Below are positions 8,586 through 26,720 of a stretch of 33,148 nt of DNA, in pieces. How positions within the stretch are numbered: the stretch's first letter is position 1; every line of letters begins with the position of its first letter. Position numbers and translations under genes: made by a program. The stretch is from positions 1 to 33,148 of the forward strand of contig JAGQSZ010000010.1 in assembly GCA_020439285.1 (NCBI GenBank), given 5' to 3'. The stretch is from Microthrixaceae bacterium (GTDB lineage Bacteria > Actinomycetota > Acidimicrobiia > Acidimicrobiales > Microtrichaceae). The notes beneath the pieces are model-generated. The model was not told the origin of the DNA and ran no database searches. It saw nothing but the letters and a program-made list of their open reading frames with translations.

Positions 8586-10235
8586 TCACGGTTCCCGGTA
8601 TTGGGCAGACCTTCGTGTCCCCTCCATTACGAGCTTTCCTTCCTTAGCCAGTCGTCGGAGGAGCCGTGAAGCTTGGTCGCCGGACAGTTGACAGAGCCTG
8701 GCGGCGTCACTTCTGGTGATCTTGTCGTGGTTGCGGACAAAGGTCATGATCATTTGCTCCTGTTGGATGCTGTCAAAACCCCGTGTTCGTACGTATTGAT
8801 CAGGTTGTCCAAGGGAGGAGTACATTGCTGCGGATAGATGGTAGGTGCGAGCCTTCCCTTCCCCTCGGGTCTCAAGAAGGCCCCTGCCCACCAAGTCATT
8901 AAGGACTACGCGTGCCTCGTCGTTTCGAATTCGCAGTAACTCTGCCGCCCGATGAGTTGTAATCCGCCCCTCATGGCGTACCTCATGAAGTAGTTGCAGC
9001 GTGGATAGCGAGATCGGTTCACCTTGACGTTGTTGGGCTGCAACAAACGCGGCCAACTCTCGGTCAGCTGGTCCCGGGTGTATGCGTACAACTACCCAAT
9101 CGGATGTGGATCTTCCGTAGTCGGGAGCAGAGCGACCGACTGCCAGCTGACTCCAGTAAACCTTGTTGATGCCTCTACCCGTCCTGTCCACGATGCCAGC
9201 GCGCTTGAATGCGTCTGCCAAGCGTGGATTGCGCGGATTTGGTGGAGCAGTGAGCAGATTCTCAATCGTGATTCCGCTCGGGAAACCGCCTGGGCTAGAG
9301 ATCTCCAGGACCGAATCTTCCAGCTTGACGCGGATCTGTCCAGATTGTGAATAGTCGCGATGTACGAGTGCGTTAGCGATTAATTCACGGAGGGTGGTGT
9401 CGGCAAACCGTGGCAAGCCAATCCTAAAGAAACCGTCCTGAAACTCCTCCTCTGGGTTGTATGGCCCTATTGCCTCGGTGAGATCCAGCATTGTCCTGAG
9501 GAGAGGCCGTCGCTCGATTCTGTTGATGCTCACCTCATGGCTGTTTAGAACTTGGAACGCTGACTCGTGAGTCGGCACGAAGCGCTGTATTGCGCTTTCG
9601 GTGCCGAACAACAACACGGCGCCGACCGCGAGTTCGCCTCCGGGCAGAGCAAATCCCAAGGCTTTGAGCAGGTCCAGGTCCGAGAGCGATCCGAGGACGT
9701 TGTCTCCCTGTGCACTTGCCATTCTTCGGAAGCCGGCTAGTTCGTTGGCATCTAGGTCATTCGTCGTTGCACCCGGGAGTGGTATGACCGAGATGTCGAC
9801 TGCGCCAATAGCTGCGGCGCGTCCCAGTTGCTCATGCGGTAGAAGCCCAACGCAATTCGGTCTCCCGTGTACGTCAATTACTCGTCGACGGTAGAGACCG
9901 CTGGTTGTTGACACTACTGATCGTGCGGACTCCACTGAGATTGCAACGATGTGCTTCCCATCGCTGTCAAGCACCTCAACGTTGACCCGCAGTGGAGGAG
10001 AGGTCTTGTTTGCGATCATCGCCGCTAAACGATCTGGATCGGTTGCTGTTCCATGAAGCGGTGGGGTTCCAACGATTTCCCCGTTGTCATCGACTCCGAG
10101 CAGCAACTGTCCACCAGAGGCATTGGCGAGACAAACCAATGCCTCTGTAATCCCCTTGTCATTTAGTGTCCGTTTGAACTCAACCGTAAGGGATTCGCCC
10201 TTGTCAGCTAGTTCACGCAACTTGTCTGCGTCCAC
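8586..10235 (-). CDS. Schlafen/AlbA_2-domain ATP-binding regulator
   Basis: A 549-residue protein. Residues 12-130 form an AlbA_2 (Schlafen-like) domain: ESLTVEFKRTLNDKGITEALVCLANASGGQLLLGVDDNG in family order. A central segment with LRELIANALVHRDYSQSGQIRV and ISSPGGFPSGI near 285-330 resembles the GHKL-type ATPase seen in this family, and two winged-helix regions follow (about 405-470 and 490-545). Proteins of this design are described as transcriptional regulators or defence-related. The GTG start lies six bases after TAAAGT. The gene is richer in A and T than both neighbours and sits between copies of a 52-bp duplication, signs of acquisition. Confidence 0.8.
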   Translation of the reverse strand: MDADKLRELADKGESLTVEFKRTLNDKGITEALVCLANASGGQLLLGVDDNGEIVGTPPLHGTATDPDRLAAMIANKTSPPLRVNVEVLDSDGKHIVAISVESARSVVSTTSGLYRRRVIDVHGRPNCVGLLPHEQLGRAAAIGAVDISVIPLPGATTNDLDANELAGFRRMASAQGDNVLGSLSDLDLLKALGFALPGGELAVGAVLLFGTESAIQRFVPTHESAFQVLNSHEVSINRIERRPLLRTMLDLTEAIGPYNPEEEFQDGFFRIGLPRFADTTLRELIANALVHRDYSQSGQIRVKLEDSVLEISSPGGFPSGITIENLLTAPPNPRNPRLADAFKRAGIVDRTGRGINKVYWSQLAVGRSAPDYGRSTSDWVVVRIHPGPADRELAAFVAAQQRQGEPISLSTLQLLHEVRHEGRITTHRAAELLRIRNDEARVVLNDLVGRGLLETRGEGKARTYHLSAAMYSSLGQPDQYVRTRGFDSIQQEQMIMTFVRNHDKITRSDAARLCQLSGDQASRLLRRLAKEGKLVMEGTRRSAQYREP

Positions 10236-12321: not shown

Positions 12322-15300
12322 ATGTCGGTGTTCTCCGAGATACCACCAACCGAGTGGATAGCGTCCAACAGATCCGGCTTCGCGATCCTTGACCGGTTCC
12401 CCGTAACCGAAGGCCACGCGCTCGTCATCTCCCGACGTGAGATCCCCACTTGGTGGGACGCCGCTCCCGACGAACAAGCCGACTTGATGGCACTCGTGGA
12501 CCAGGTCCGCACGATCCTCGATGAGCGTTACGCACCGGACGGCTACAACGTCGGGTTCAATGCCGGTTCGGCCGCCGGACAGACCGTCGATCACCTGCAC
12601 ATCCACATGATCCCACGCCATCACGGTGACATGGAGGACCCGCGGGGAGGTGTTCGCCATGTGATCCCCGAGCGGGGCAACTACATGGCGCCTCCGAGCG
12701 ACACCGCCAGACAACCGGCCGGGGAACCCACGTCGGGCACCCAGCGAGAACTGCTGTTGGTCGATTCGCTCGGTCCCCGCATGATGCGCCACGAACTAGA
12801 TGACGCTCTGCGTGACCCGGGTTTCGACCGTGTCGACCTGCTCGTCAGCTTCATCATGAAATCCGGGCTCGGTCTGATTCGTGAACGCTTGGACGAAGCA
12901 CTCGAACGCGGTGCTGTCGCCAGGGTTCTCACAACCGACTACCTGCATATCACCGACGCCGATGCGTTGGCACTGCTGTTGGATCTGCGTGAATCACATC
13001 ACGACTCGACAGGGAGTCTGGCGATCCGGGTGTTCTCCGATCCGCTCACCTCGTTCCACCCCAAGGCATATCTGTTCCATTCGAGCCGGACCAACGCAGC
13101 GCTCGGGTTCGTGGGTTCCAACAACCTGTCTCGCTCGGGAATCGACGGGGGAGTCGAATGGTCACTCGGGGTCGACAGCGTCCAACCGCTGGTGGCGAGC
13201 TTCGACCGATTGTGGAGCGATCCTCGCAGCCGACCCCTCAACCACGAATTCCTGCGCAGCTACCGCAACCAGTGGCGAGTGGCTCTCGCCCGTGAGGATC
13301 GCCCGGTCGAAGTCGACATCGAGTTGGAGGAACCGGCAGCACCGGTGGCACCGCGCCCTCTGCAACTCGAGGGACTCGAAGCGTTGAAGGCCACCCGGAA
13401 CGCGGGACACAACGCCGGACTGGTCGTGATGGCCACCGGACTCGGCAAGACCTGGCTCGCAGCTTTCGACTCGACAGCATTCATCGACTCAGATGCTCCC
13501 ATGGGAGCGCGCGACTCGGCCCCAGACGCTCCCGCGGGAGCGCGCGGCCGCATACTGTTCATCGCCCACCGCGAGGAGATCCTCACCCAGAGCCGTGACG
13601 TCTACCGGCAGGTGGCGCCTTCGCTCGAACTCGGGCTCTACAACGGATCTGAGAAACAACCGGATGCCGATGTCGTGTTCGCGTCCATCCAGACGATCTC
13701 ACGTCGGCTCGACCTGTTCGACCCCGATGAGTTCGACTACATCGTCATCGACGAGTTCCACCACGCCGCTGCTCCCAGCTACCGGCGGACCGTCGATCAC
13801 TTCACTCCCCGGTTCCTGTTGGGTCTGACCGCCACACCCGAGCGCATGGACGGCGCCGATCTACTCGCCCTGTGCGGCGACAACCTGGTCTTCGAGCGGG
13901 GACTCGTCGAAGGGATCAACAGGTCCGAACTGGTGCCCTTCCAGTACTGGGGTGTCGCCGACGTGGTCGACTACGAACCGATCCCGTGGCGCAGCGGCAG
14001 GTTCGATCCCCAAGCGCTCACCGAAGCGGTCGAGACCCGGGCGCGAGCCCAGCACTCTTTGGACCTGTGGCGCACGCGATGCAACAACCGCACCTTGGCG
14101 TTCTGTGTGTCGATCACTCACGCCGATTTCATGGCCGAGTACTTCAACGCTGCCGGAGTGCGATCGGTAGCGGTGCACAGTGGTCCGGATTCCTATTCAC
14201 GAGTCGATGCGATCAAGGGGTTGCGCACCGGAGAGATCCAAGTCGTGTTCACCGTCGATGTCTTCAACGAGGGCGTGGACATTCCCGAGATCGACTCGGT
14301 GATGATGCTCCGGCCGACGGGTTCGCCGGTGATCTTCTTGCAACAGCTCGGTCGTGGGTTGCGACTCAGCGACGGCAAGGACCACTTGACCGTGGTGGAC
14401 TTCGTCGGCAATCACTCGAGTTTCCTGATCGCACCAAGAGTCCTGGCGGGTCTGTCATCCAACCGCACACTGAGCCAGACAGACGTTGTGAGAGCGGTCC
14501 AACGAGGTGAGTTCGATCTGCCTGCTGGGTGTTCGGTCAACTTCGATCTGGAACTGGTCGACCTGTTCCAACGCCTCGTCGCTGCACGCCGGCAGACCAA
14601 GATCGGAGCACTCGCGAGCTACTGCTTGGAGATAGTGGACGAAACAGGTTTCCGGCCGAGCGCTGTGCAGGTGCACGCGGCTGGATTCGACCCGGCCGTC
14701 GCCCGAGCGAGCCACGGTGGATGGTTCTCCATGCTCGCCGATCTGGGCCTGCTCTCCGATGAGGAACAGGCGGTCGTCGACGCGCATGGATCGCTATTGC
14801 TCTCGATTGAGACCGAGTCGATCTCCAAGTCCTACAAACTGGTGACTCTTCGAGCGCTGATCGCGGATGGAACACTGCGGACCGGAACGACTGTCGATGC
14901 AGTGTCTGCTCGTTCGCACCGGTTGGTGTCGGGGGATCCGAGGCTTGTGCTGGACGTACGCAGCAAGTCCATTCCAGACCCGACGGTCGTGCCCATGAAT
15001 GAGTGGCGGAACTTCTGGCGCAAGAATCCGCTGGTCCACCTGGCGAAGCCAAAGGGCGAAGGCCCTGCCTTGTTCGACCTGGATGGCGACCGGTTCACGC
15101 CGAACTTCTCGGTCGATGAAGCGTCGGGCGAGACCTTCGACCAGATGGTCGGCGAGATCGTCGATTGGCGACTGGCCGGGTATCTGCTCGGGGGAAGTGC
15201 TGGTGCGGTTGAGGAGGATGACGTCGATGGTCCGGATGAAGAAGTCGAGGTCGATCCGGCGTATCGCTTGGACCGATACCCGGACGAGATGAATGCTCAT

Positions 15301-15726
15301 CTGATAGGTCAGCGCTTCAAGCGAGATCAGGTCTCGATTATGTTCGGACTCGAGTTCAACCAGGCGAAGTGGAATCTTGGCCACGTCTCACTTGGTGAGG
15401 ATGCGGTGTTGTTTGTGACTCTGAACAAGAGCAGCGCAATGCAGTACGGCAGTGATTATGTCGATCACTTCGAGTCGCCCTCCCAGTTCGTGTGGGCCAG
15501 TCAGAACAGCGTCGGTCCGGAATCGAAGAAGGGGCGAGAGGTGCTGGACTCGCCGGGCAACGGCGTCCGCATCCATCTGTTCGTGAGAGCCAAGAAGAGC
15601 GATGTTGCCTTCGAGTATTGCGGACTGGTTGAGCCGGTCAGTCACCATGGATCGAAGCCGATGTCTGTGACCTTCCAACTGCTCCAACCATTGAGTGGTG
15701 ATGCCGCACGAAGGTTCGGTGCATGA
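12322..15726 (+). CDS. HIT-PLD-SF2 helicase-DUF3427 fusion protein
   Basis: A 1134-residue protein in four parts. Residues 1-115 are a HIT hydrolase with the His91-x-His93-x-His95 triad (HLHIHMIPRHH). Residues 140-315 are a phospholipase D-type nuclease domain with one HxK motif (FHPKAYLF, His246 and Lys248) and GSNNLSRSG. Residues 345-710 are a superfamily 2 helicase: ATGLGKT at 371-377, a DEFHH box near 477-481, LTATPER, and the QQLGRGLR motif VI. The rest fits DUF3427. PLD-helicase-DUF3427 proteins are linked to phage defence; the HIT part might act on a nucleotide signal or adenylylated end. Residues 390-410 are an insertion from a repeat. It is followed by an HNH nuclease gene. Confidence 0.83.
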   Translation: MSVFSEIPPTEWIASNRSGFAILDRFPVTEGHALVISRREIPTWWDAAPDEQADLMALVDQVRTILDERYAPDGYNVGFNAGSAAGQTVDHLHIHMIPRHHGDMEDPRGGVRHVIPERGNYMAPPSDTARQPAGEPTSGTQRELLLVDSLGPRMMRHELDDALRDPGFDRVDLLVSFIMKSGLGLIRERLDEALERGAVARVLTTDYLHITDADALALLLDLRESHHDSTGSLAIRVFSDPLTSFHPKAYLFHSSRTNAALGFVGSNNLSRSGIDGGVEWSLGVDSVQPLVASFDRLWSDPRSRPLNHEFLRSYRNQWRVALAREDRPVEVDIELEEPAAPVAPRPLQLEGLEALKATRNAGHNAGLVVMATGLGKTWLAAFDSTAFIDSDAPMGARDSAPDAPAGARGRILFIAHREEILTQSRDVYRQVAPSLELGLYNGSEKQPDADVVFASIQTISRRLDLFDPDEFDYIVIDEFHHAAAPSYRRTVDHFTPRFLLGLTATPERMDGADLLALCGDNLVFERGLVEGINRSELVPFQYWGVADVVDYEPIPWRSGRFDPQALTEAVETRARAQHSLDLWRTRCNNRTLAFCVSITHADFMAEYFNAAGVRSVAVHSGPDSYSRVDAIKGLRTGEIQVVFTVDVFNEGVDIPEIDSVMMLRPTGSPVIFLQQLGRGLRLSDGKDHLTVVDFVGNHSSFLIAPRVLAGLSSNRTLSQTDVVRAVQRGEFDLPAGCSVNFDLELVDLFQRLVAARRQTKIGALASYCLEIVDETGFRPSAVQVHAAGFDPAVARASHGGWFSMLADLGLLSDEEQAVVDAHGSLLLSIETESISKSYKLVTLRALIADGTLRTGTTVDAVSARSHRLVSGDPRLVLDVRSKSIPDPTVVPMNEWRNFWRKNPLVHLAKPKGEGPALFDLDGDRFTPNFSVDEASGETFDQMVGEIVDWRLAGYLLGGSAGAVEEDDVDGPDEEVEVDPAYRLDRYPDEMNAHLIGQRFKRDQVSIMFGLEFNQAKWNLGHVSLGEDAVLFVTLNKSSAMQYGSDYVDHFESPSQFVWASQNSVGPESKKGREVLDSPGNGVRIHLFVRAKKSDVAFEYCGLVEPVSHHGSKPMSVTFQLLQPLSGDAARRFGA
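13492..13546. repeat. Two in-frame palindromic units inside the helicase gene
   Basis: GATGCTCCCATGGGAGCGCG (from 13492) and GACGCTCCCGCGGGAGCGCG (from 13525) lie 33 bases apart, an exact eleven-codon period. Each contains a perfect palindrome (GCTCCCATGGGAGC, GCTCCCGCGGGAGC). They encode two DAPxGAR units between helicase motifs I and Ia, where relatives have a short loop. Confidence 0.65.
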
Positions 15727-16782: not shown

Positions 16783-17244
16783 TCAGTCATACCTTGACTC
16801 GCAAAGCTCCCGTTGACTTGCGTCGATGGTGAAATCCACTGAGTAGAGGTGAGCGTATCCCTGCTCATGTTTCGCCATGTCGGCTCCATCTGCTTCATCA
16901 AATGGTGGGCCGAGTAGGGAGTCTTCGGGAGAATCTCCGATGAAATACAGCGCGATGGCCGGTTGTATTGATTGCTCTTTTTGGTCTTTAGAGTTGGGTA
17001 CTCTCCATTTGCAACTGATGGGTAGCTGCCATCTCTTCCAATAGCTGAGCTCTTCTGGGGAACTCGCCCCGGTTCCTAACTGTGGTACCTCCACAAATCG
17101 AGTTGGTGGATTACTCGGACCGTTCATTTCGGGCCGTGTCAACGGAGCGTTGGGCATCTCGTTGATTAGCCATCTCAAATGCGCGCGCCTTAGCTCGATG
17201 GACCGAAAGCACTGGTCTAGAACGGTTTGCGTCCCTTGGACCAA
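16783..17244 (-). CDS. Unknown 153-residue protein coupled to the SNF2-DUF3883 gene
   Basis: I do not recognise the family. The reading frame starts with TTG inside the last 28 bases of the SNF2-DUF3883 gene, so it is probably translated by coupling; an ATG at 17157 is the alternative. The N-terminal part is basic (RSIELRRAHLRWLINEMP), and the last 60 residues contain LYFIGDSPEDSLLGPPFDEADGADM... and EQGYAHLYSVDFTIDASQRELCES. That C-terminal block recurs at 24785-24976 in a decayed second copy. It has no membrane segment and no known catalytic motif. Its position suggests an accessory or regulatory subunit of the helicase system. Confidence 0.6.
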   Translation of the reverse strand: MVQGTQTVLDQCFRSIELRRAHLRWLINEMPNAPLTRPEMNGPSNPPTRFVEVPQLGTGASSPEELSYWKRWQLPISCKWRVPNSKDQKEQSIQPAIALYFIGDSPEDSLLGPPFDEADGADMAKHEQGYAHLYSVDFTIDASQRELCESRYD

Positions 17245-20200
17245 GTCTTGGTCCAGTCGACAACCTGACCGGGCACTTCGAAGGTCCCAATTGTTATGTT
17301 GGAAAATGGGTCGTCGAGGTAGCGAACCTCGTCGTTATCGGGTGAGTCTGGATCGACCTGAACAAGCGCCAGGCGAAACATTGGAGCAGCATTCTTGCCT
17401 GTAACAACCTCGTTGTGCGTTACCCAGAATCCCGTTGACCCAATGGGCTGGGCCTTGACCAAAATCCTGAACGTACGACCCGTGGCTGTATCAGTTGAGA
17501 GCATCTGATAGCCCGGATTGTTGTGTTCGGCTCGTGTTCTTGCTTCACGCCCGAGTGCTCTTTCGCTCGCAAGCACATAGTCGAGTGCTCGTTTCTCAAA
17601 GGCCTTGCTTTCGGTCGTTCTGGCTGCATCTCCGATTGGTTCCAGCGCTGCCGTGCTGCTTGCAGGCAGCACAAGGGCTGCGGTCACGATGACGGGTGGC
17701 TTGGTGGACATGTTTGCCTGCTGGTCGATGAGTTTGGTGCGGAGGTCCAGGCGAACCTGGAGAGCGGCTGCTTTGTTGGCGAGGCTGCTTGATGACTCTT
17801 TGGTCTTGGGCCTCTCGCCGAAGCGTTCCATTTCCTCTGCAGCGACTGCTTCTTTCATGAGCCTCTCGCTCTCGTCTTTGAGCCGAGAGCTGACTAGAAC
17901 TCGTTGTTTCTCTAGTTCAGTGATTCGTCGCTGTTGGATCTCACTTAGGTAGTCCGGGAGTTCGTGCTCGATAATCCAACTCACCGCGGCTGATTCTGCT
18001 TCGTGCAGCCAGGGCAGCGACTTGGCGTTCTCTACATCCGAATTGCTGGGTGCCGGGAAGAAGTCAAGGTATGGAGCCGGCCCCGCCTCAATAACGGTTC
18101 CATCTTCCGCGACGTATGCATATCCAAACCTCCGCGCCACTGAGGCATCAGTGGCGTCAACGACCTCTTTGATGACGCCGACCAGGACTTGTGGGGATTC
18201 AATGCTGTTTGAAATGAGTGCAGTCCCCCGATTGAGGGTCCCCGCAAGAGTTGTTACCACTTGTTCCATGACAGCGTCATGAAGTGGGTGGCCAGGTGCA
18301 AGAAGATCGGCCCGTGCGAGTCCGTCTGGCTGAACAGCGTTTAGATCGAAGGTAACGCGGTCGTAACGAGACGCGATTGGGGCGTACCTACCGTTTCGCA
18401 ATACTGCTGGAACGCCGCTGAGTTCATAGCGCCCTTTCTCTCGCTTGATAACGCGACCACCGAAGCGAGTAAAGGCTTCTTTGAAGGCAAGTTCGATGTA
18501 ATGCGGCTGTAACCGACGAGCTTGGGCCTCCTCGGTCGCAGCCCGCAGAGATGCGAGGTCGGTCTGTGAAAAATTCTCGCTCGCTAGCGCGCGCTCGTTC
18601 AGGAGTTCCTCGAGCCCTTCAGAGACGCTGTTGTCAATGACCTCGTGCATACGGGCCCGAACCTCAGGCTGGTCGCCGTAACGAATGGCCTCTATGAGCA
18701 ATTCTCTAAGCGGAGTGTCTGCAAATGCCGTTCCGAGGACATCAAAGACCTTGCCTCCATATGCTTTTCGCTGCTCCTCGATCTTGTTCAAGAGAGCTGT
18801 GAAGACTTCTCCTTCACGGGTATTGGATGCCACGAGGTTCCAAAGCCGGCATACGTCTTCCTGCCCGATGCGGTGGATTCGACCAAAGCGCTGCTCGATC
18901 CGGTTGGGGTTCCATGGGAGGTCATAGTTGACCATCAGGTGTGCGGCCTGGAGATTGAGTCCTTCTCCTGCTGCATCAGTGGCGAGCATTATGCGGCACT
19001 CAGGGTTCTTGGTGAACTCTTCGGTTATGGCCCTTCGGTCGTGGCGTCGAACTCCACCGTGGATGGAAACGACCGCCTTTGGGTGCCTAATCAGCTTCTG
19101 AATACGTTCTGTTAGATAGTTCAGCGTGTCACGATGTTCGGTGAAGATGATGAGCTTCCGTGGCTTGCCAGTCCTATCCGGCGTAATGACGTTGTCTTCA
19201 AGGATGAGGCTTAGCTCGGACCATTTTTTGTCATCGCCTCGATCGCGAACCACCTTTGCGGCCATGGCTAATGTCTTTAGCTCGACAATCTCAGCTTCTA
19301 ATTCAGCGATGGTTTCCGCAGCCGTGGCGGCATCGAGGACATCTTCTTCGTATTCCTCAATCTGTTCGGCCGAGTATGCCTCTTCGTCAATTTCGCTCGG
19401 ATCAATTCCGAAGAGATCTGCTCGGTAGGTGCTGTTCTGAATACCTTGTTTTGCCATCTCCAAACGGTCTGCTCGACGGAGAAGGCTTCGATAAATTGCT
19501 TCTGGACTGGATGCCAGCCTCCGTTGAAGGACAGTTAGCGCGAATCCGACAGTGCTGCGTCGCTTGCCGTCGAGAAGTTTGGCTGCTCGGTTCATGCCAT
19601 TTCGGACATAGTCGGTGACCTGCTCGTACAGGTCATTCTCTAACTCGGTCAGCTCATACGGAATTGACTCAGCGATGCGTTCAGGGAAGAGCCTGTTTCC
19701 CTCGAAGGTCAACAGGTTCTCCTTTGTCATGCGGCGCATGATGTCGCTTGTGTCAACTGACTTGACGTTCTTTCCTGCGAAGCGGTCCTTGTCTAGGAGG
19801 CTGAGGAAGAGTTGAAAATCTTCCTCCTTGCCGGAGTGTGGTGTGGCAGTCATAAGTAGAAAGTGCCGGGCTATGTCACCGAGCAGCTCTCCGAGTTGGA
19901 ATCGTTTGGTCTTCACCAATTTGTTGCCAAAGTAGTGAGCACCCATGCGGTGAGCTTCGTCGACTACCACCAGATCCCACTGGGAGTCTCGGAGCTGAGC
20001 TAGAAGGTCGTCATTTCGTGCAACTTGATCCATCCTGGCGATCAGCAGGTTGCCCAGGTCAAATACGTTGCTTGTCAGGCTCGCGTCCACTCGTTCCGTG
20101 GTCAGGATCTCAAAACGCAGCCCAAACTTGAAGAACAGCTCGTCTTGCCACTGCTCTACTAGTCCGCCGGGAGCAACCACCAGGCAGCGGTGAACGTCCT

Positions 20201-20642
20201 CTCGGAGAATCAGCTCCTTGATGAAGAGCCCTGCCATGATGGTTTTACCCGCCCCAGGATCGTCGGCGAGCAGGAATCGCAGCGGACTTCGGGGTAGAAG
20301 TTCATCGTAGACAGCACGGATCTGGTGAGGGAGTGCCTGCACATTGCTTGTGGCCACGGCGAGCATCGGGTCATGCAGTCCGGCGAGCTTGATACGTTGG
20401 GCTTCTGCTGCCATCTTGAAGTCGTATGCGGGTGCATCAAAACCGCGACTACCCGAGGTTGAGACTGTGATCTGTTCCTCATCACGGCGAAATAGGACCC
20501 GTTGGCCGAGGGAACCGCTAGCGGTCCGATAGGTAATTTCGAATGCGTCCTTACCGTGTGCTTGTGCAAACAGAATCTCCACTACCTCATGAGGTATGAC
20601 TCCGCTAAGCCGCAGACCCGTAATGATCTCCTCCAGCTTCAT
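17217..20642 (-). CDS. SNF2-family DNA/RNA-dependent ATPase with C-terminal DUF3883-like domain
   Basis: A 1141-residue protein. Residues 100-430 and 480-640 form the two SNF2 ATPase lobes: LADDPGAGKT (125-134), DEAH (228-231), TATPHSG (265-271), TDAAGEGLNLQ and the motif VI QRFGRIHRIGQ. The middle (about 640-1000) is partly coiled-coil, with many Lys/Glu and heptad Leu. Residues about 1010-1115 (ALDYVLASERALGREART, NNPGYQMLS, RILVKAQPIGS, WVTHNEVVTGKNA) match DUF3883, a domain with a restriction-enzyme-like look found on defence helicases. AAGGAGG stands 11 bases before the ATG. It diverges from the second SNF2 gene and is followed by the small coupled gene. It is rich in A and T compared with the flanks. 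Confidence 0.87.
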   Translation of the reverse strand: MKLEEIITGLRLSGVIPHEVVEILFAQAHGKDAFEITYRTASGSLGQRVLFRRDEEQITVSTSGSRGFDAPAYDFKMAAEAQRIKLAGLHDPMLAVATSNVQALPHQIRAVYDELLPRSPLRFLLADDPGAGKTIMAGLFIKELILREDVHRCLVVAPGGLVEQWQDELFFKFGLRFEILTTERVDASLTSNVFDLGNLLIARMDQVARNDDLLAQLRDSQWDLVVVDEAHRMGAHYFGNKLVKTKRFQLGELLGDIARHFLLMTATPHSGKEEDFQLFLSLLDKDRFAGKNVKSVDTSDIMRRMTKENLLTFEGNRLFPERIAESIPYELTELENDLYEQVTDYVRNGMNRAAKLLDGKRRSTVGFALTVLQRRLASSPEAIYRSLLRRADRLEMAKQGIQNSTYRADLFGIDPSEIDEEAYSAEQIEEYEEDVLDAATAAETIAELEAEIVELKTLAMAAKVVRDRGDDKKWSELSLILEDNVITPDRTGKPRKLIIFTEHRDTLNYLTERIQKLIRHPKAVVSIHGGVRRHDRRAITEEFTKNPECRIMLATDAAGEGLNLQAAHLMVNYDLPWNPNRIEQRFGRIHRIGQEDVCRLWNLVASNTREGEVFTALLNKIEEQRKAYGGKVFDVLGTAFADTPLRELLIEAIRYGDQPEVRARMHEVIDNSVSEGLEELLNERALASENFSQTDLASLRAATEEAQARRLQPHYIELAFKEAFTRFGGRVIKREKGRYELSGVPAVLRNGRYAPIASRYDRVTFDLNAVQPDGLARADLLAPGHPLHDAVMEQVVTTLAGTLNRGTALISNSIESPQVLVGVIKEVVDATDASVARRFGYAYVAEDGTVIEAGPAPYLDFFPAPSNSDVENAKSLPWLHEAESAAVSWIIEHELPDYLSEIQQRRITELEKQRVLVSSRLKDESERLMKEAVAAEEMERFGERPKTKESSSSLANKAAALQVRLDLRTKLIDQQANMSTKPPVIVTAALVLPASSTAALEPIGDAARTTESKAFEKRALDYVLASERALGREARTRAEHNNPGYQMLSTDTATGRTFRILVKAQPIGSTGFWVTHNEVVTGKNAAPMFRLALVQVDPDSPDNDEVRYLDDPFSNITIGTFEVPGQVVDWTKTWSKGRKPF

Positions 20643-20738: not shown

Positions 20739-23700
20739 GTGGTGAGACGTGCCCAATGGCATCAACTCGGCACGGAAATCGATGAGATCAACTCTTGGAT
20801 CAGTATCGCCACCGAAGTCCGACGTATCTCTGGTCACCTACCGCTATCTGGTTCAAGCTCGCTGTGGGACGAGGCTGCAGCAGTTCTTGAGCCACTGGAA
20901 CGCCAGACACTTAAGGACGACATTGCGGAGTCAGCTCAGTTATCAAATGTCTCGTGGTCCTCAAATCGGATAAGGCTTCGGCCCGCTTATGCTGCGGCAA
21001 GTCGGCTCACGGAGCTGTATAGATCATTTCGTTCAACTCACAGTGATGAGAAGCTGCTGGCGCTTAGAGATCAGCTTGCCGAGATGGCTAAGTCGGAACG
21101 AAATGAACTGGCCCAGTTACTGACTGATCTAACCAGTTTGTGTGAGGTCGCTCGAAAGATGCTTCATGATTCCGCGCACATGCCTTTTGGTGGATCAGAA
21201 GCTCTCGCTCCGTCAGAAAGGACATCAGCAGAGGCGATGCTCCAAGTAGCAGTGCTCGAGCATCAAGCCAACGCAGCCATGCTCCTGGATGAACACTTCT
21301 GTCGAGAGCCATACCACTGCGGTGCTGCGCATGTTGCGACTAGCTATCTATACCGCTCATTTGTCTCAGCGAACGAGTCCGGCATGTTTGATGAACTCCG
21401 TGCTGCTGCGGAGCGGGTTGCTGAGCAGTCGGTGTTGGAGTTGGAAGCCCTTGATGGGGTTCTTGGTGATCTTGATGAGTGGCGGGCGGCTGCTGCGGAT
21501 CTATTGGATCTCACTGCTCACATGCCGCTGACTCGGGTCGGAGCGTTGTCCGATATCGAACGATCGGTACTTGAGATGCTCCAAGATCTAGTAGCGAAAT
21601 GTGCTCCTCGGGCTCATAAACTCTGGCTGGCAGACTGTTGCGACAAAGGTCGGTGCGATTCGTTGCATGTCGCCGCATCAAGCCTGGTTCAGTTCCACGT
21701 GTTTTGGCGAGTATTCCGACCACTGGACCTCGCGAGTATCTCTCGACGCTTGACCGAGCAGTTTGCGCAGGAGAACAGGGATGTCGAAGCATTCCTTGTT
21801 CAAATGGGGTCGTGGCAGAGTCGGGTTGAAGAAATACGAGCCACGAGAAAGACAGCGCGCGAGTTCATTGACGAACGAGTATCGCAACTCGTGGAGTGCT
21901 CGAAATCGTTGACGATTAGCAAAGCTCCGCTGAAACTCATACCGCTGATGGCAGACACAGCGATGGAGGCCAAGGACAACACGCTTGTTGCGTCATTGGT
22001 ATTACTTCGTGATGCTGCTCTGACCGAGACAGATGAGCGATCGCTTCAGTCTGTTGTAGCCCTTGCTGGGTCTGTTCGATCAGCGGTCAATCAAGGTTTC
22101 ACCAAGGCTGGAGCATGTAGAGCGAATGGGAAATGTCAACGGACCCACGATCGAATCTCCGAGGCATTCCAATTAGCTGATGAAACTGAGTCATTGCTTG
22201 ATCGATTAGCGGTCGATCTGGCGTCGATGCCTACGGACATAGATCTCCTCACCGAGTCGAACCTCGGCCTCAGTGAATGTCTTGGTGGTGACTCCCTTTC
22301 TTTGGAATTACTAGACAGCGAGACGCTGGCAAAGGCGTGGGAAAGCCTCGCAGTAGTTGCCGACCTGGAGAGCCTAGTGAAGGAGGCATCTGGCAAAGCT
22401 CACGCAGCAGCAGAAAGAGTGCGCACCCAGGACATCGTCAGAGCGATGAAGTCGATGGATCTCGAAGTTCTTCGTAAGGCTTCATCAGCGGATCGGGTCC
22501 GCGTGTCTCCGTTGGAGGCTTCAGGAATAAACAACGTTTGGGATGCGTATAAATATCAGGAGAGCGGGGATCTTGCTTCCCTGCCACAGCTCGGTAAGAC
22601 GTCGGCACAGGCGGTTACCCAAGCGGCTCTACGAATATTTGAGGCTGTGAGGGCAGAAACCCCAGTTCGGATTGATGTGAAACAGAGGAAGAGGGCGACT
22701 CTTAATCTGTTGCAATCGCTTCGCTATTGGGACGCAATCCGCCGAGTCAAGCCGTCTAGGGGCGAACGGTCTCTCGCCCGCGCACTGTTATCACTGAATC
22801 ATGAGCTTGCGGGCCGCCTGCAGAAGAGAGGCAAGACGCCAGCCCAGCGTGTCCTGGCCGTCAAATACGAGAGCACCGATACGCTTGCCCCTGACTTGGG
22901 TGAGATGTTGGTGAGTCTGAGCAACCAAGCTGCTCTTCTGTCAAGAGATGATGATATTTGGACCGACTTCCTGTCACGTCCTGCGGACTATTTCGGCATG
23001 ATCACCGAACTTGGATTCATGACTGAAGATGAGAAGAAGATGCATGGTGATCTCCCAGAGGAGATCGTCGAGGCAGTACGAGCCAAGGAGCTCAATTCGG
23101 ATCTTGTAACTGCGTCACTGCGCACATATCAGCTGTTCGGAGCTCGGTTCGCGTTGGCGCAGGAAAAGGTTGTTATCGGCGATGAAATGGGTTTGGGCAA
23201 GACTCTTGAAGCACTTGCATTAATAGCCCATCTTCGTGCTGCAGGTCATTCCCACTTCTTAGTCGTTTGCCCTGCAGGGGTTGTTAGCAATTGGATTCGG
23301 GAGACCTCGAAGCACACGAAACTTACTACGTCAAGGCTCCATGGCCCTCTGCTGGAGCGCACCAATTCTGCGAAATCTTGGATAAGGCGAGGCGGAGTCG
23401 CTGTCATAACTTATGACCTTTTGCCATGGGCCGAAAAGTACTTGAATGATGTGGAGCTTGGATGTGCTATTTTCGACGAGGCCCACTACATAAAGAATCC
23501 CAATGCTAAGCGGTCAGTAGCCGCAGCGAAGATCATTGACTCACTGAGGTTCATCATCCTTATGACCGGAACTCCACTTGAGAATAGTGTCGAGGAGTTT
23601 CGCAACCTAATTAGGTATATTCGGCCCGACCTAGCAGATGAGGCACCGGAGTATCTAGCCGCTGCATTTCGAAAACATGTAGCGCCCGCGTATCTGCGTA

Positions 23701-24422
23701 GAAATCAAGAAGACGTACTGACCGAGCTTCCAGAACTTGTTGAGATCGACGAGTGGACAACACTTTCTGAGGTTGACGAGATTGCTTATCGCTCTGCGGT
23801 GGAAGACGGCCATTTCATGCTTATGCGTAGGACAGCAATGCTCTCAGAACACTCGTCCAAGGTGGAACGCCTTTGCGAGATTGTTGAGGAAGCACAGGCG
23901 AATGGGCGCCGCGTAATTGTGTTCTCGTACTTTCGTGAAGTCCTTGATGTGGCTGCCCGAGTCTTACCTGGCAGAGTGTTTGGTCCACTGACCGGTTCTC
24001 TGCCAGCTGCCAAGAGACAAGTTTTGATTGATCGATTCTCGGAGTACAAGGACGGGGCAGTTCTTGTGGCTCAGATCGCCGCAGGAGGAGTTGGCCTTAA
24101 CATTCAGTCGGCTTCAGTCGTTGTGATTTGCGAACCTCAACTGAAGCCGACGCTCGAGGCTCAGGCTATTGCTCGAGCGCATCGAATGGGGCAGATAAAT
24201 ACTGTTCAAGTGCACCGCCTTCTTACTGAGAACAGCGTTGATGAACGGATCAGGGAGATACTCGCCGAGAAGAGGTGGATCTTTGATGAGTTTGCACGTG
24301 ATAGTGCGATTGTGAAGCAAGCTCCAGATGCGGTTGATATGTCTGAGGCCGAGCTGACCCGACTTGTTGTCGCAGCCGAAAAGGAAAGGCTACTGAGCTC
24401 TCCAGGGGCCACGATTGGCTGA
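20739..24422 (+). CDS. SNF2-family ATPase with a repeat-containing N-terminal region carrying C-x5-C-x3-H motifs
   Basis: A 1227-residue protein. The C-terminal 450 residues are a SNF2 motor: GDEMGLGKT (about 813-821), FDEAHYIKN (about 911-919), LMTGTPLEN, QIAAGGVGLNIQ and RAHRMGQINTVQVHRLL. The N-terminal 500 residues hold four diverged units. His-Met/Leu-Pro elements occur at His33, His147 and His261, exactly 114 apart; C-x5-C-x3-H motifs occur at Cys188/Cys194/His198, Cys300/Cys306/His310 and Cys460/Cys466/His470. The first unit lacks cysteines and the fourth lacks the early His. I know no named domain like this; zinc binding is an inference. Either GTG at 20739 or GTG at 20742 may start; the second is better spaced from AGGAG. 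Confidence 0.85.
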   Translation: MVRRAQWHQLGTEIDEINSWISIATEVRRISGHLPLSGSSSLWDEAAAVLEPLERQTLKDDIAESAQLSNVSWSSNRIRLRPAYAAASRLTELYRSFRSTHSDEKLLALRDQLAEMAKSERNELAQLLTDLTSLCEVARKMLHDSAHMPFGGSEALAPSERTSAEAMLQVAVLEHQANAAMLLDEHFCREPYHCGAAHVATSYLYRSFVSANESGMFDELRAAAERVAEQSVLELEALDGVLGDLDEWRAAAADLLDLTAHMPLTRVGALSDIERSVLEMLQDLVAKCAPRAHKLWLADCCDKGRCDSLHVAASSLVQFHVFWRVFRPLDLASISRRLTEQFAQENRDVEAFLVQMGSWQSRVEEIRATRKTAREFIDERVSQLVECSKSLTISKAPLKLIPLMADTAMEAKDNTLVASLVLLRDAALTETDERSLQSVVALAGSVRSAVNQGFTKAGACRANGKCQRTHDRISEAFQLADETESLLDRLAVDLASMPTDIDLLTESNLGLSECLGGDSLSLELLDSETLAKAWESLAVVADLESLVKEASGKAHAAAERVRTQDIVRAMKSMDLEVLRKASSADRVRVSPLEASGINNVWDAYKYQESGDLASLPQLGKTSAQAVTQAALRIFEAVRAETPVRIDVKQRKRATLNLLQSLRYWDAIRRVKPSRGERSLARALLSLNHELAGRLQKRGKTPAQRVLAVKYESTDTLAPDLGEMLVSLSNQAALLSRDDDIWTDFLSRPADYFGMITELGFMTEDEKKMHGDLPEEIVEAVRAKELNSDLVTASLRTYQLFGARFALAQEKVVIGDEMGLGKTLEALALIAHLRAAGHSHFLVVCPAGVVSNWIRETSKHTKLTTSRLHGPLLERTNSAKSWIRRGGVAVITYDLLPWAEKYLNDVELGCAIFDEAHYIKNPNAKRSVAAAKIIDSLRFIILMTGTPLENSVEEFRNLIRYIRPDLADEAPEYLAAAFRKHVAPAYLRRNQEDVLTELPELVEIDEWTTLSEVDEIAYRSAVEDGHFMLMRRTAMLSEHSSKVERLCEIVEEAQANGRRVIVFSYFREVLDVAARVLPGRVFGPLTGSLPAAKRQVLIDRFSEYKDGAVLVAQIAAGGVGLNIQSASVVVICEPQLKPTLEAQAIARAHRMGQINTVQVHRLLTENSVDERIREILAEKRWIFDEFARDSAIVKQAPDAVDMSEAELTRLVVAAEKERLLSSPGATIG

Positions 24423-24784
24423 GCCTTGCAAGCTGGATAAGGCCTGAGGCGCCGGGTGCCCAAACACATGAACTTCACCTCGGGCCAGGCCGATTTGCAG
24501 CTCAGGCAGATAGGGCTTTCAGAGCAGTTACTCCTAATCGCGTCCTGTCACCTATATGCCCGTCCCGCGATGAACCCATCGTGTTTGGGGCAGTGGTACG
24601 ACATCCTGATCGGGTCTCCCCTAACGACGGAAGTCGAGTGAGGTCTGATCGATGAGGCAGATGGTCCAATCGAGCAGGCTCACAGTGAGAGAACCCGCTT
24701 ACCTCACCGACGTCTAGCTCTGCTCGGCCGAGAGTTATTTGCCAGTTGCCCGAGCAGCTTTCACTGCGCCTTCACTGGTTAGTC
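24423..24784. other. Gap without a supported gene
   Basis: I see no gene, RNA or clear repeat here. A 61-codon open frame on the plus strand (24456-24641) has no ribosome site or recognisable motif. The stretch lies between the SNF2 gene and the decayed copy of the small gene, so it may be boundary debris. Confidence 0.4.
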
Positions 24785-25040
24785 CTATCTCGACTCGCAA
24801 AGTTCCATCTGGCGAGAGTCGATAGGCACGGCGACTGAGTACATGTGTGCGTAACCCTGCTCGAGCCTTGCCATGTCAGCGCCATCGGCCTCATCAAACG
24901 GCAAACCCTCTAACGCATCTTCTGGTGAGTCGCCGATGAAATACAGAACGAATGTTTCCCGCATCAAGTGCTCCATTCCCTAGCGGCACGGGCTTTGTGC
25001 TCCAAGTTCTTTGGTCTTACTAGCTAAATATTCCATTGGA
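24785..25040 (-). pseudogene. Decayed copy of the small gene at 16783-17244
   Basis: The minus strand from about 24958 encodes LYFIGDSPEDALEGLPFDEA..., EQGYAHMYSV and ELCESR before a stop at 24785, matching the end of the 153-residue protein closely. Upstream, a stop codon interrupts the frame before ATG 24976. A different frame further upstream (about 25036-24980) reads EYLASKTKELGAQSPCR, similar to the PNSKDQKEQSIQPA part of the intact protein, so a frameshift has occurred. The rest of the gene is missing. A 64-codon product could still be made from 24976 but has no separate evidence. Confidence 0.65.
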
Positions 25041-25174: not shown

Positions 25175-25597
25175 CTAGGAGCCCAAGGGGTTGGATACGT
25201 GCATGCCCCGACGGCTCGCGGCATTGCACAACTCCAGATCTGCGCTCGAGATGACGTCGGTTTCCAGCGAGAGTGCGGCCGCGAGGTGCACGGCGTCATA
25301 TGCCCGTAGGGCTTCCTGTTCAGCCAGCTCGCCTGCAGCCACGATCAACTCGTTTGTCACCCTGACGATCAGTAGTTGATCAATGAGAAGCGCCAGGTGT
25401 GTCAGAGCCTCTTGCTGCTGACTGGCGGTGATTCGCCGGTGACGGTGAGCTGCCGCAAGCGCTGCCCGTGCCTCTACCCGGATCAGGGCTGACGATGCCA
25501 GTACCTCTGAAGCATCCCACAGCGCCTCGACTTGGTCTGAGCCGACCTCGTCAACCAGCAACTTGAGCAACGATGATGTGTCGACATAGGTGATCAC
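25175..25597 (-). CDS. PIN-domain ribonuclease toxin (VapC)
   Basis: A 140-residue PIN nuclease. Its acidic residues are Asp6 (TYVDTSSLLKLL), Glu42 (IRVEARAALAAA), Asp101 (AYDAVHLAAALSLETD) and Asp120 (SSADLELC). It fits the VapC family that cuts a structured RNA. The start GTG overlaps the antitoxin stop by four bases (GTGA), the classical coupling. The frame and catalytic residues are complete, so in contrast to the two toxin genes to its right it should be functional. Confidence 0.88.
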   Translation of the reverse strand: MITYVDTSSLLKLLVDEVGSDQVEALWDASEVLASSALIRVEARAALAAAHRHRRITASQQQEALTHLALLIDQLLIVRVTNELIVAAGELAEQEALRAYDAVHLAAALSLETDVISSADLELCNAASRRGMHVSNPLGS

Positions 25598-25875
25598 CGT
25601 CGCTGTTCCGCCACGAACGAACTGACGCTTCCCTTCGCTTTGATCCGGCTCCTTGGCCGTTGGCGGACTGTCGATCGAGGTGGCGTGACCAACCCAGTGC
25701 TGATGAGCATGCTGAGCCGGTCCTCGGCGGGGTCGATGGCAGACAGTCGTGCAACAGGCGTGCCTCGATCAGTGACGACGATCTCTTCGCCGGTCTTCAC
25801 TCTCTCCAGGTAGCGGCTCAAGTTGTTCTTGAGTTCGCGCACGCCGACAGCGGTCGAAGTAGTAGCTACATTCAC
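25594..25875 (-). CDS. Phd/YefM-family antitoxin
   Basis: A 93-residue protein with VGVRELKNNLSRYLERVKTGEEIVVTDRGTPVARL (about residues 11-45), the complete Phd/YefM DNA-binding core. The basic tail (RQRPRSRIKAKGSVSSFVAEQ) binds the partner PIN toxin. The GTG start is chosen because it lies six bases after TACACT; an ATG is absent in the region. It precedes and overlaps the VapC gene. Two GTAGCTAC palindromes surround the start and are its likely operator. Confidence 0.87.
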   Translation of the reverse strand: MNVATTSTAVGVRELKNNLSRYLERVKTGEEIVVTDRGTPVARLSAIDPAEDRLSMLISTGLVTPPRSTVRQRPRSRIKAKGSVSSFVAEQRR

Positions 25876-26465: not shown

Positions 26466-26720
26466 ATGGCCCAAGTTCTGATCCGCAATCTTCCAGACGA
26501 GGTGCACCGCGCGCTTCGTGCGCAAGCGAAACGGTCCGGTAGGAGTACCGAGGCAGAGATTCGCCAGATTCTTGCTGACGCTGTTCAGCCACAGGATCGA
26601 CCACGCTTGGGGTCGCTGCTTCGCGAGATCGGCGGCGAAGCGCGCTTGTCCGACGGTGACGTGGCGGTTTTCGATTATGTGAGGGGCTCGACGCCGCTGG
26701 AGCCGATGGAGTTCCGGTGA
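26466..26720 (+). CDS. FitA-like ribbon-helix-helix antitoxin (VapB)
   Basis: An 84-residue protein beginning AQVLIRNLPDEVHRALRAQAKRSGRSTEAEIRQILADAV, the FitA-type ribbon-helix-helix fold, with a C-terminal toxin-binding tail ending GSTPLEPMEFR. GGAGGTGA about six bases before the ATG is a good ribosome site. The stop overlaps the GTG start of the partner toxin by four bases. The partner is broken, so this is an antitoxin without target. It diverges from the MazE-type gene across 133 bases. Confidence 0.85.
   Translation: MAQVLIRNLPDEVHRALRAQAKRSGRSTEAEIRQILADAVQPQDRPRLGSLLREIGGEARLSDGDVAVFDYVRGSTPLEPMEFR

Follow-up and report, generated by a model that had tools for sequence, protein, structure and literature searches.

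A Swi2/Snf2 ATPase of 1227 residues, encoded in a stretch of 33,148 nucleotides from a Microthrixaceae bacterium (hereafter the window), carries ahead of its motor a long region in which cysteines and histidines recur at regular intervals, and the question arises of what this region is, how it was formed and what it might contribute to the motor. On the basis of sequence comparison, the array apparently represents a new domain family, joined to an enzyme of a known kind.

The Swi2/Snf2 protein and its N-terminal array

The gene extends from 20739 to 24422 on the plus strand and begins with a GTG preceded by the stretch GGAGAG, a second GTG at 20742 being aligned with the ATG of its relatives. 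The two-lobed Swi2/Snf2 motor (23106 to 24308, plus strand) retains intact GDEMGLGKT, DEAH, MTGTPLEN and ARAHRMGQ motifs, and its assignment to the class is given by matches to Pfam SNF2-rel_dom (113 bits) and Helicase_C (59 bits), together with the Walker A, DEAH and C-terminal helicase motifs; this motor, at residues 797-1151, is all that Pfam covers in the protein. PADLOC matches span residues 527-1213, with DpdE (PDLC02852) at 660 bits and DrmD (PDLC02627) at 455 bits. The likeness to DpdE/DrmD-like ATPases comprises the motor and the linker region preceding it, but these profiles stop short of residues 1-520, and NCBIfam DrmD_b is matched at 82 bits, far below its cut-off of 950. Among the eight larger proteins of the window, PADLOC detected no DISARM gene (DrmA, DrmB or DrmC) and no other Dpd gene beside the Snf2 gene, the other strong best assignments being HmaA and mREase_IV. 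Within the protein, a helix-hairpin-helix-like stretch (LPQLGKTSAQAVTQAA; 22494 to 22658, plus strand) was recognized by alignment to relatives, and weak Pfam HhH matches to it occur in the relatives only.

Residues 1-520 displayed no match in Pfam, NCBIfam, PADLOC, PHROGs or the sequences of the PDB, a search of the latter giving nothing at E up to 1, and no description of the N-terminal repeat domain was found in the literature searched. An earlier note on this DNA had given the open reading frame, its coordinates and its residue numbers correctly, and had inferred a repeated metal-binding recognition module joined to a DNA or RNA translocase, for which it knew no named family; the Swi2/Snf2 motor is indeed intact, and none of the family collections Pfam, NCBIfam, PADLOC and PHROGs covers the region. 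The same note had pointed out three triads of identical C-x5-C-x3-H spacing, C188/C194/H198, C300/C306/H310 and C460/C466/H470, as well as H-(M/L)-P elements spaced by 114 residues at H33, H147 and H261, and both features are indeed read directly from the protein. Composition shuffles of residues 1-530 yielded a mean of 0.0056 C-x5-C-x3-H motifs and reached three in none of 20,000 trials, and three alike were obtained in 0 of 3,000 shuffles when any C-xa-C-xb-H spacing was allowed, which rules out chance or composition as the origin of the triads.

The N-terminal region is a true tandem repeat, although it does not consist of four equivalent units as had been supposed. A Cys-less copy defined by the unit alignment comes first (u0, residues 1-114, 20739 to 21080), marked by H33-L-P and a basic segment, SSNRIRLRPAY, followed by two metal units of 112-114 residues, each with three predicted helices (u1, residues 115-228, 21081 to 21422; u2, residues 229-350, 21423 to 21788), and by a related final domain that holds the third triad and is homologous to the N-terminal domain that Cys-less relatives have as a single copy (residues 345-520, 21771 to 22298), all on the plus strand. 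The aligned units share a rough consensus that reads ER-x2-L-x3-L-x-DL-x2-W-x3-A in the N-terminal part, H-(M/L)-P-(L/I)-(T/S)-R-x-G-A-L-S-x2-ER in the middle and H-x6-LLDP-x2-C-x(4/5)-C-x3-H-x2-A in the C-terminal part.

Distribution and origin of the units

An alignment of the subfamily was run against 84,980 species genomes and the best 80 loci were kept, three of which match from residue 2 on: those of Arthrobacter humicola (L030), Nocardioides sp. CFH 31398 (L031) and Knoellia remsis (L032). No C-x5-C-x3-H motif was present in the other loci of these 80 with a readable reading frame; homologues of the same spacing on other SNF2 proteins, named in the earlier note as a sign of support, exist within a small clade and not in SNF2 proteins in general. 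In a tree of the motors, the four proteins with repeats form one clade with a support of 100/100. Their N-terminal regions are 22-36% identical, and the units show only 19-34% identity to u2 of the window. After one Cys-less unit, and before the related final domain, the Arthrobacter protein has four metal units, those of Nocardioides and Knoellia one each, and that of the window two. The triads are found at 186, 298, 410, 522 and 676 in Arthrobacter, the first four with an internal period of exactly 112 residues, at 185 and 339 in Nocardioides and at 185 and 338 in Knoellia, and BLAST comparisons among these proteins aligned them in more than one register, with offsets of one unit or more. 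The first unit is devoid of a triad in all four proteins, with a basic stretch in its place in three of them. Because copy number differs between relatives, units can be deleted or swapped as a direct test of what the array does.

The repeat-bearing family is rare. No new member was found in genome samples from the order and class of the window's own organism, from the families of the Arthrobacter and Nocardioides relatives, or from the family and order of the Knoellia relative; four extra matches in the sampled genomes consist of a Cys-less final domain alone, and a further weak match (L029) had an E value of 5e-4. An origin in phages or plasmids was also considered and set aside, phage records, viral contigs and plasmids containing no repeat-bearing relative.

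Ordinary relatives possess a single N-terminal domain of the form MDRxERxxLR...RRFFxGxxRKxxAxxAAxxLxxxHxW, which can be aligned with the window protein's final domain, its basic RRFFxGxxRK standing in the alignment about where the latter has the Cys/His motif. The profile of the units also matches this Cys-less domain with an hhalign probability of 94.6 and an E value of 7e-8. The simplest reading of these alignments is that the units arose as tandem duplicates of the Cys-less N-terminal domain, and that the copies and the final domain acquired a metal site, u0 being the exception. Such a history would clearly exemplify the gain of a probable metal site in the course of domain duplication.

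Putative metal sites and predicted fold

The conserved residues are probably metal ligands, and the pattern proposed for the sites is (H/C)-x12-C-x4/5-C-x3-H. The first putative site comprises H175, C188, C194 and H198 (21261 to 21332, plus strand; H-x12-C-x5-C-x3-H) and would lie in the turn between helices alpha2 and alpha3. The second comprises C288, C301, C306 and H310 (21600 to 21668, plus strand; C-x12-C-x4-C-x3-H). In this unit the C-x5-C-x3-H pattern previously reported is real, but C300 is not the conserved cysteine: the relatives show the equivalent of C301, with C-x4-C-x3-H spacing, and C300 is an extra residue. Since the expected 12 residues stand between C288 and C301, C301 is taken as the pairing cysteine. 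The third triad (C460, C466 and H470; 22116 to 22148, plus strand) is part of the final domain and has no visible conserved fourth ligand, as no conserved residue of the H/C type precedes the first Cys of that domain by x12. The C, C and H of the triads are kept in all 12 cases (36 of 36 residues) across the eight internal units and four final domains of the four proteins. The position separated by 12 residues from the first Cys is occupied in the eight internal units by His in five, by Cys in the second metal unit of the window and by Asp in two, this Asp at -13 belonging to one unit of Arthrobacter and one of Knoellia; the latter unit has a His at -16, after an insertion of three residues.

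AlphaFold2 models were obtained for residues 1-630 (21 alignment rows, pLDDT 86.6, pTM 0.54) and 100-345 (5 alignment rows, pLDDT 88.3, pTM 0.75). Each modelled unit consists of three helices, which are about 45, 26 and 20 residues long, at 102-146, 158-183 and 195-214 in u1 and at 216-260, 272-296 and 307-326 in u2, and these long helices are predicted to be near-continuous across the unit borders. Judged from the secondary structure of the models only, the triad is placed in the alpha2-alpha3 turn, and the H-M-P loop connects alpha1 to alpha2. H198 and H310 fall within the first turn of helix alpha3 and H175 and C288 within the C-terminal portion of alpha2, so that the whole of alpha2 separates H147 and H261 from the triads. 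The fourth ligand that had been suggested at first, a His that precedes the triad by 39-41 residues, belongs to this separate H-(M/L)-P motif in the alpha1-alpha2 loop and is implausible, being at the opposite end of a helix of about 25 residues. H175 and C288, with 12 residues between them and C188 and C301, respectively, are the better candidates.

The C-x5-C-x3-H half of the spacing is shared with CCCH zinc fingers (C-x7-8-C-x5-C-x3-H). In contrast to these, the units of the window have no Cys 7-8 residues upstream, carry their His or Cys candidate at x12 and hold the triad within a unit of long helices; an assignment to zf-CCCH was rejected, because Pfam gave no match (E up to 1 for the full protein; 5 for the N-terminal regions) and the x12 spacing does not fit. 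Fold searches with the 630-residue and two-unit models retrieved no significant match in the PDB or among viral models. A resemblance to spectrin repeats 16-17 (5j4o) in Foldseek had a non-significant E value of 0.8, and a match to the spectrin-like EzrA (VIA; Z 7.5, 186 aligned, rmsd 9.3) falls in the range that helical models reach by chance. Spectrin repeats and the array both consist of three-helix units of about 110 residues in tandem, with helices near-continuous across borders, but there is no significant match between them in fold or sequence. To our knowledge, spectrin repeats carry no metal site of this kind.

The Hma neighbourhood and the possible role of the array

Separated by a 96-bp gap, the divergent partner of the Snf2 gene encodes an HmaA-like Swi2/Snf2 helicase (17217 to 20642, minus strand), which is matched by the PADLOC profile for the HmaA component of the Hma system, a known phage defence, with 1258 bits over 1115 residues and is 64-71% identical to the HmaA proteins beside the repeat-bearing relatives. 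HmaA adjoins the Snf2 gene in all four repeat-bearing loci, head-to-head in the window, and likewise in nine relatives without repeats. The Hma system was proposed in PMC8565338 and renamed in PMC12839542 as DUF499-centred, BREX-related systems; in the passages of these two papers that were searched, no second Snf2 motor is named as a component. Most HmaA/Snf2 loci of the relatives continue with HmaB and several with GmrSD, and of eight genomes of relatives that were tested, seven contain DUF499 (HmaC). The window resembles this HmaA-HmaB-GmrSD arrangement, with its DUF499 ATPase gene, in the divergent HmaA, and differs from it in HmaB and HmaC: the adenine methyltransferase HmaB (DUF1156) is absent from the window and from its own assembly, which is 76% complete, and the DUF499 ATPase HmaC has no match in that same assembly. 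The system of the window may therefore be reduced or decaying. The Arthrobacter locus likewise lacks HmaB and DUF499.

Most Type-1 helicases of the HmaA kind have a C-terminal PD-(D/E)XK nuclease (PMC12839542). In ten of ten loci with HmaB, the G(Y/F)D...IEVK motif of the C-terminal NOV_C domain of HmaA is intact. This domain, which we take to be of the PD-(D/E)XK type, has a broken motif in the window (17340 to 17597, minus strand), where GYQ...ILVK replaces GYD/GFD...IEVK; in the Arthrobacter protein the motif reads GYD...IKVV, and in a further locus (L038) the domain is missing. These are precisely the three loci without HmaB, and the nuclease motif is accordingly lost in three of three such loci as opposed to none of ten with HmaB (Fisher p 0.0035, uncorrected for descent). 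The losses look independent, because the lesions differ and the motif is intact in the Nocardioides protein, the nearest relative of that of the window. Their joint occurrence makes sense, since a nuclease left unprotected should damage the cell. It also suggests that a defence system of the restriction type may drop methyltransferase and nuclease together while the motors are kept.

We consider it fairly probable that the protein is a DpdE/DrmD-like Swi2/Snf2 motor acting beside the HmaA of an Hma locus, in which a zinc-stapled N-terminal array docks DNA or a partner and couples this docking to translocation. Each site would bind a structural Zn2+ pinning the turn between two helices, so that the array may form a stiff arm projecting from the motor; this arm would dock incoming DNA or a partner protein, either HmaA or a nuclease, docking would be coupled to ATP-driven translocation, and added units would lengthen or retune the arm. 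As no known DNA- or protein-binding fold matches, the docking role is one that we infer. A defence-linked DNA motor would in this manner have gained an undescribed, expandable repeat domain with probable metal sites.

The two main rivals of this reading are a pure scaffold and an array that reads DNA. We hold it to be unlikely, but deserving of attention, that the array is a scaffold or spacer only, with spectrin-like units that set the distance between motor and partner or drive self-assembly, and a metal that is a staple without part in recognition. The long helices running near-continuously across unit borders, the non-significant resemblance to spectrin repeats 16-17 and EzrA and a copy number free to vary are consistent with such a scaffold. 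However, in the unit alignment the H-M-P-L-T-R and triad loops are conserved far above most of the helices, which suggests a working surface, and an H-M-P loop is needless in a pure spacer.

Alternatively, the units may constitute the target-recognition element, their metal turns reading a DNA feature, and the HmaB-less loci with more units would tell foreign DNA without methylation. In fact, the repeat loci without HmaB have two (window) and four (Arthrobacter) metal units as compared with one each in those with HmaB (n = 4 proteins), and loss of HmaB is always accompanied by loss of the HmaA nuclease. Nevertheless, the comparison comprises four proteins only, no known DNA-binding fold is matched and the metal loop is less basic than the ancestral Cys-less RRFFxGxxRK that it replaced, and we regard DNA reading as rather improbable. 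Equally doubtful in our estimation is a methyltransferase-free derivative of the Hma/BREX-related system, deprived jointly of HmaB and of the HmaA nuclease, in which the second Snf2 motor, with its expandable, metal-stapled array, would have assumed the recognition of foreign DNA and pass it to a separate nuclease, of the HNH kind here and of the GmrSD type in Arthrobacter.

Repeated Cys-containing sites on an ATPase might also be expected of redox or metal sensors, either a Zn-thiolate switch or Fe-S, turning the motor on in infection stress. Two Cys together with two His or other ligands per site are typical of structural zinc, and no additional Cys is conserved, the second metal unit of the window alone having more; we consider a sensor very unlikely. 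Least probable of all is that the conserved Cys and His are packing residues without metal. Duplication alone can copy a spacing within one protein, but units of such low identity to u2 keep C, C and H in every triad-bearing copy, across four lineages and a change from x4 to x5.

The surroundings of the HmaA/Snf2 pair contain further genes of interest. Adjoining HmaA is an HNH endonuclease gene (P0004; 15786 to 16736, plus strand), the product of which is 45% identical to an HNH protein encoded directly behind the Snf2 gene in Nocardioides. The pair is flanked by direct repeats of 171 bases at 16785-16955 and 24781-24951, each with a short minus-strand frame (LYFIGDSPEDxL...ELCESR) found nowhere else in the assembly; with 71% identity over the 171 bases, they are too diverged for the scar of a recent insertion. 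In the product of a gene at 12322-15726 (plus strand), a HIT domain is fused with a PLD-like segment, a ResIII helicase and DUF3427, and this protein resembles methyl-directed restriction enzymes of type IV (365 bits in PADLOC). Judged by their sequences, two adjoining frames at 25175-25597 and 25594-25875 (minus strand) look like those of a PIN-domain toxin and of a Phd/prevent-host-death antitoxin, and a small frame at 26466-26720 (plus strand) like that of an antitoxin of the FitA/Arc ribbon-helix-helix type. Finally, the SLFN_AlbA_2/HATPase_c_4 protein with a winged-helix C-terminus encoded at 8586-10235 (minus strand) may be the product of a defence or regulatory gene.
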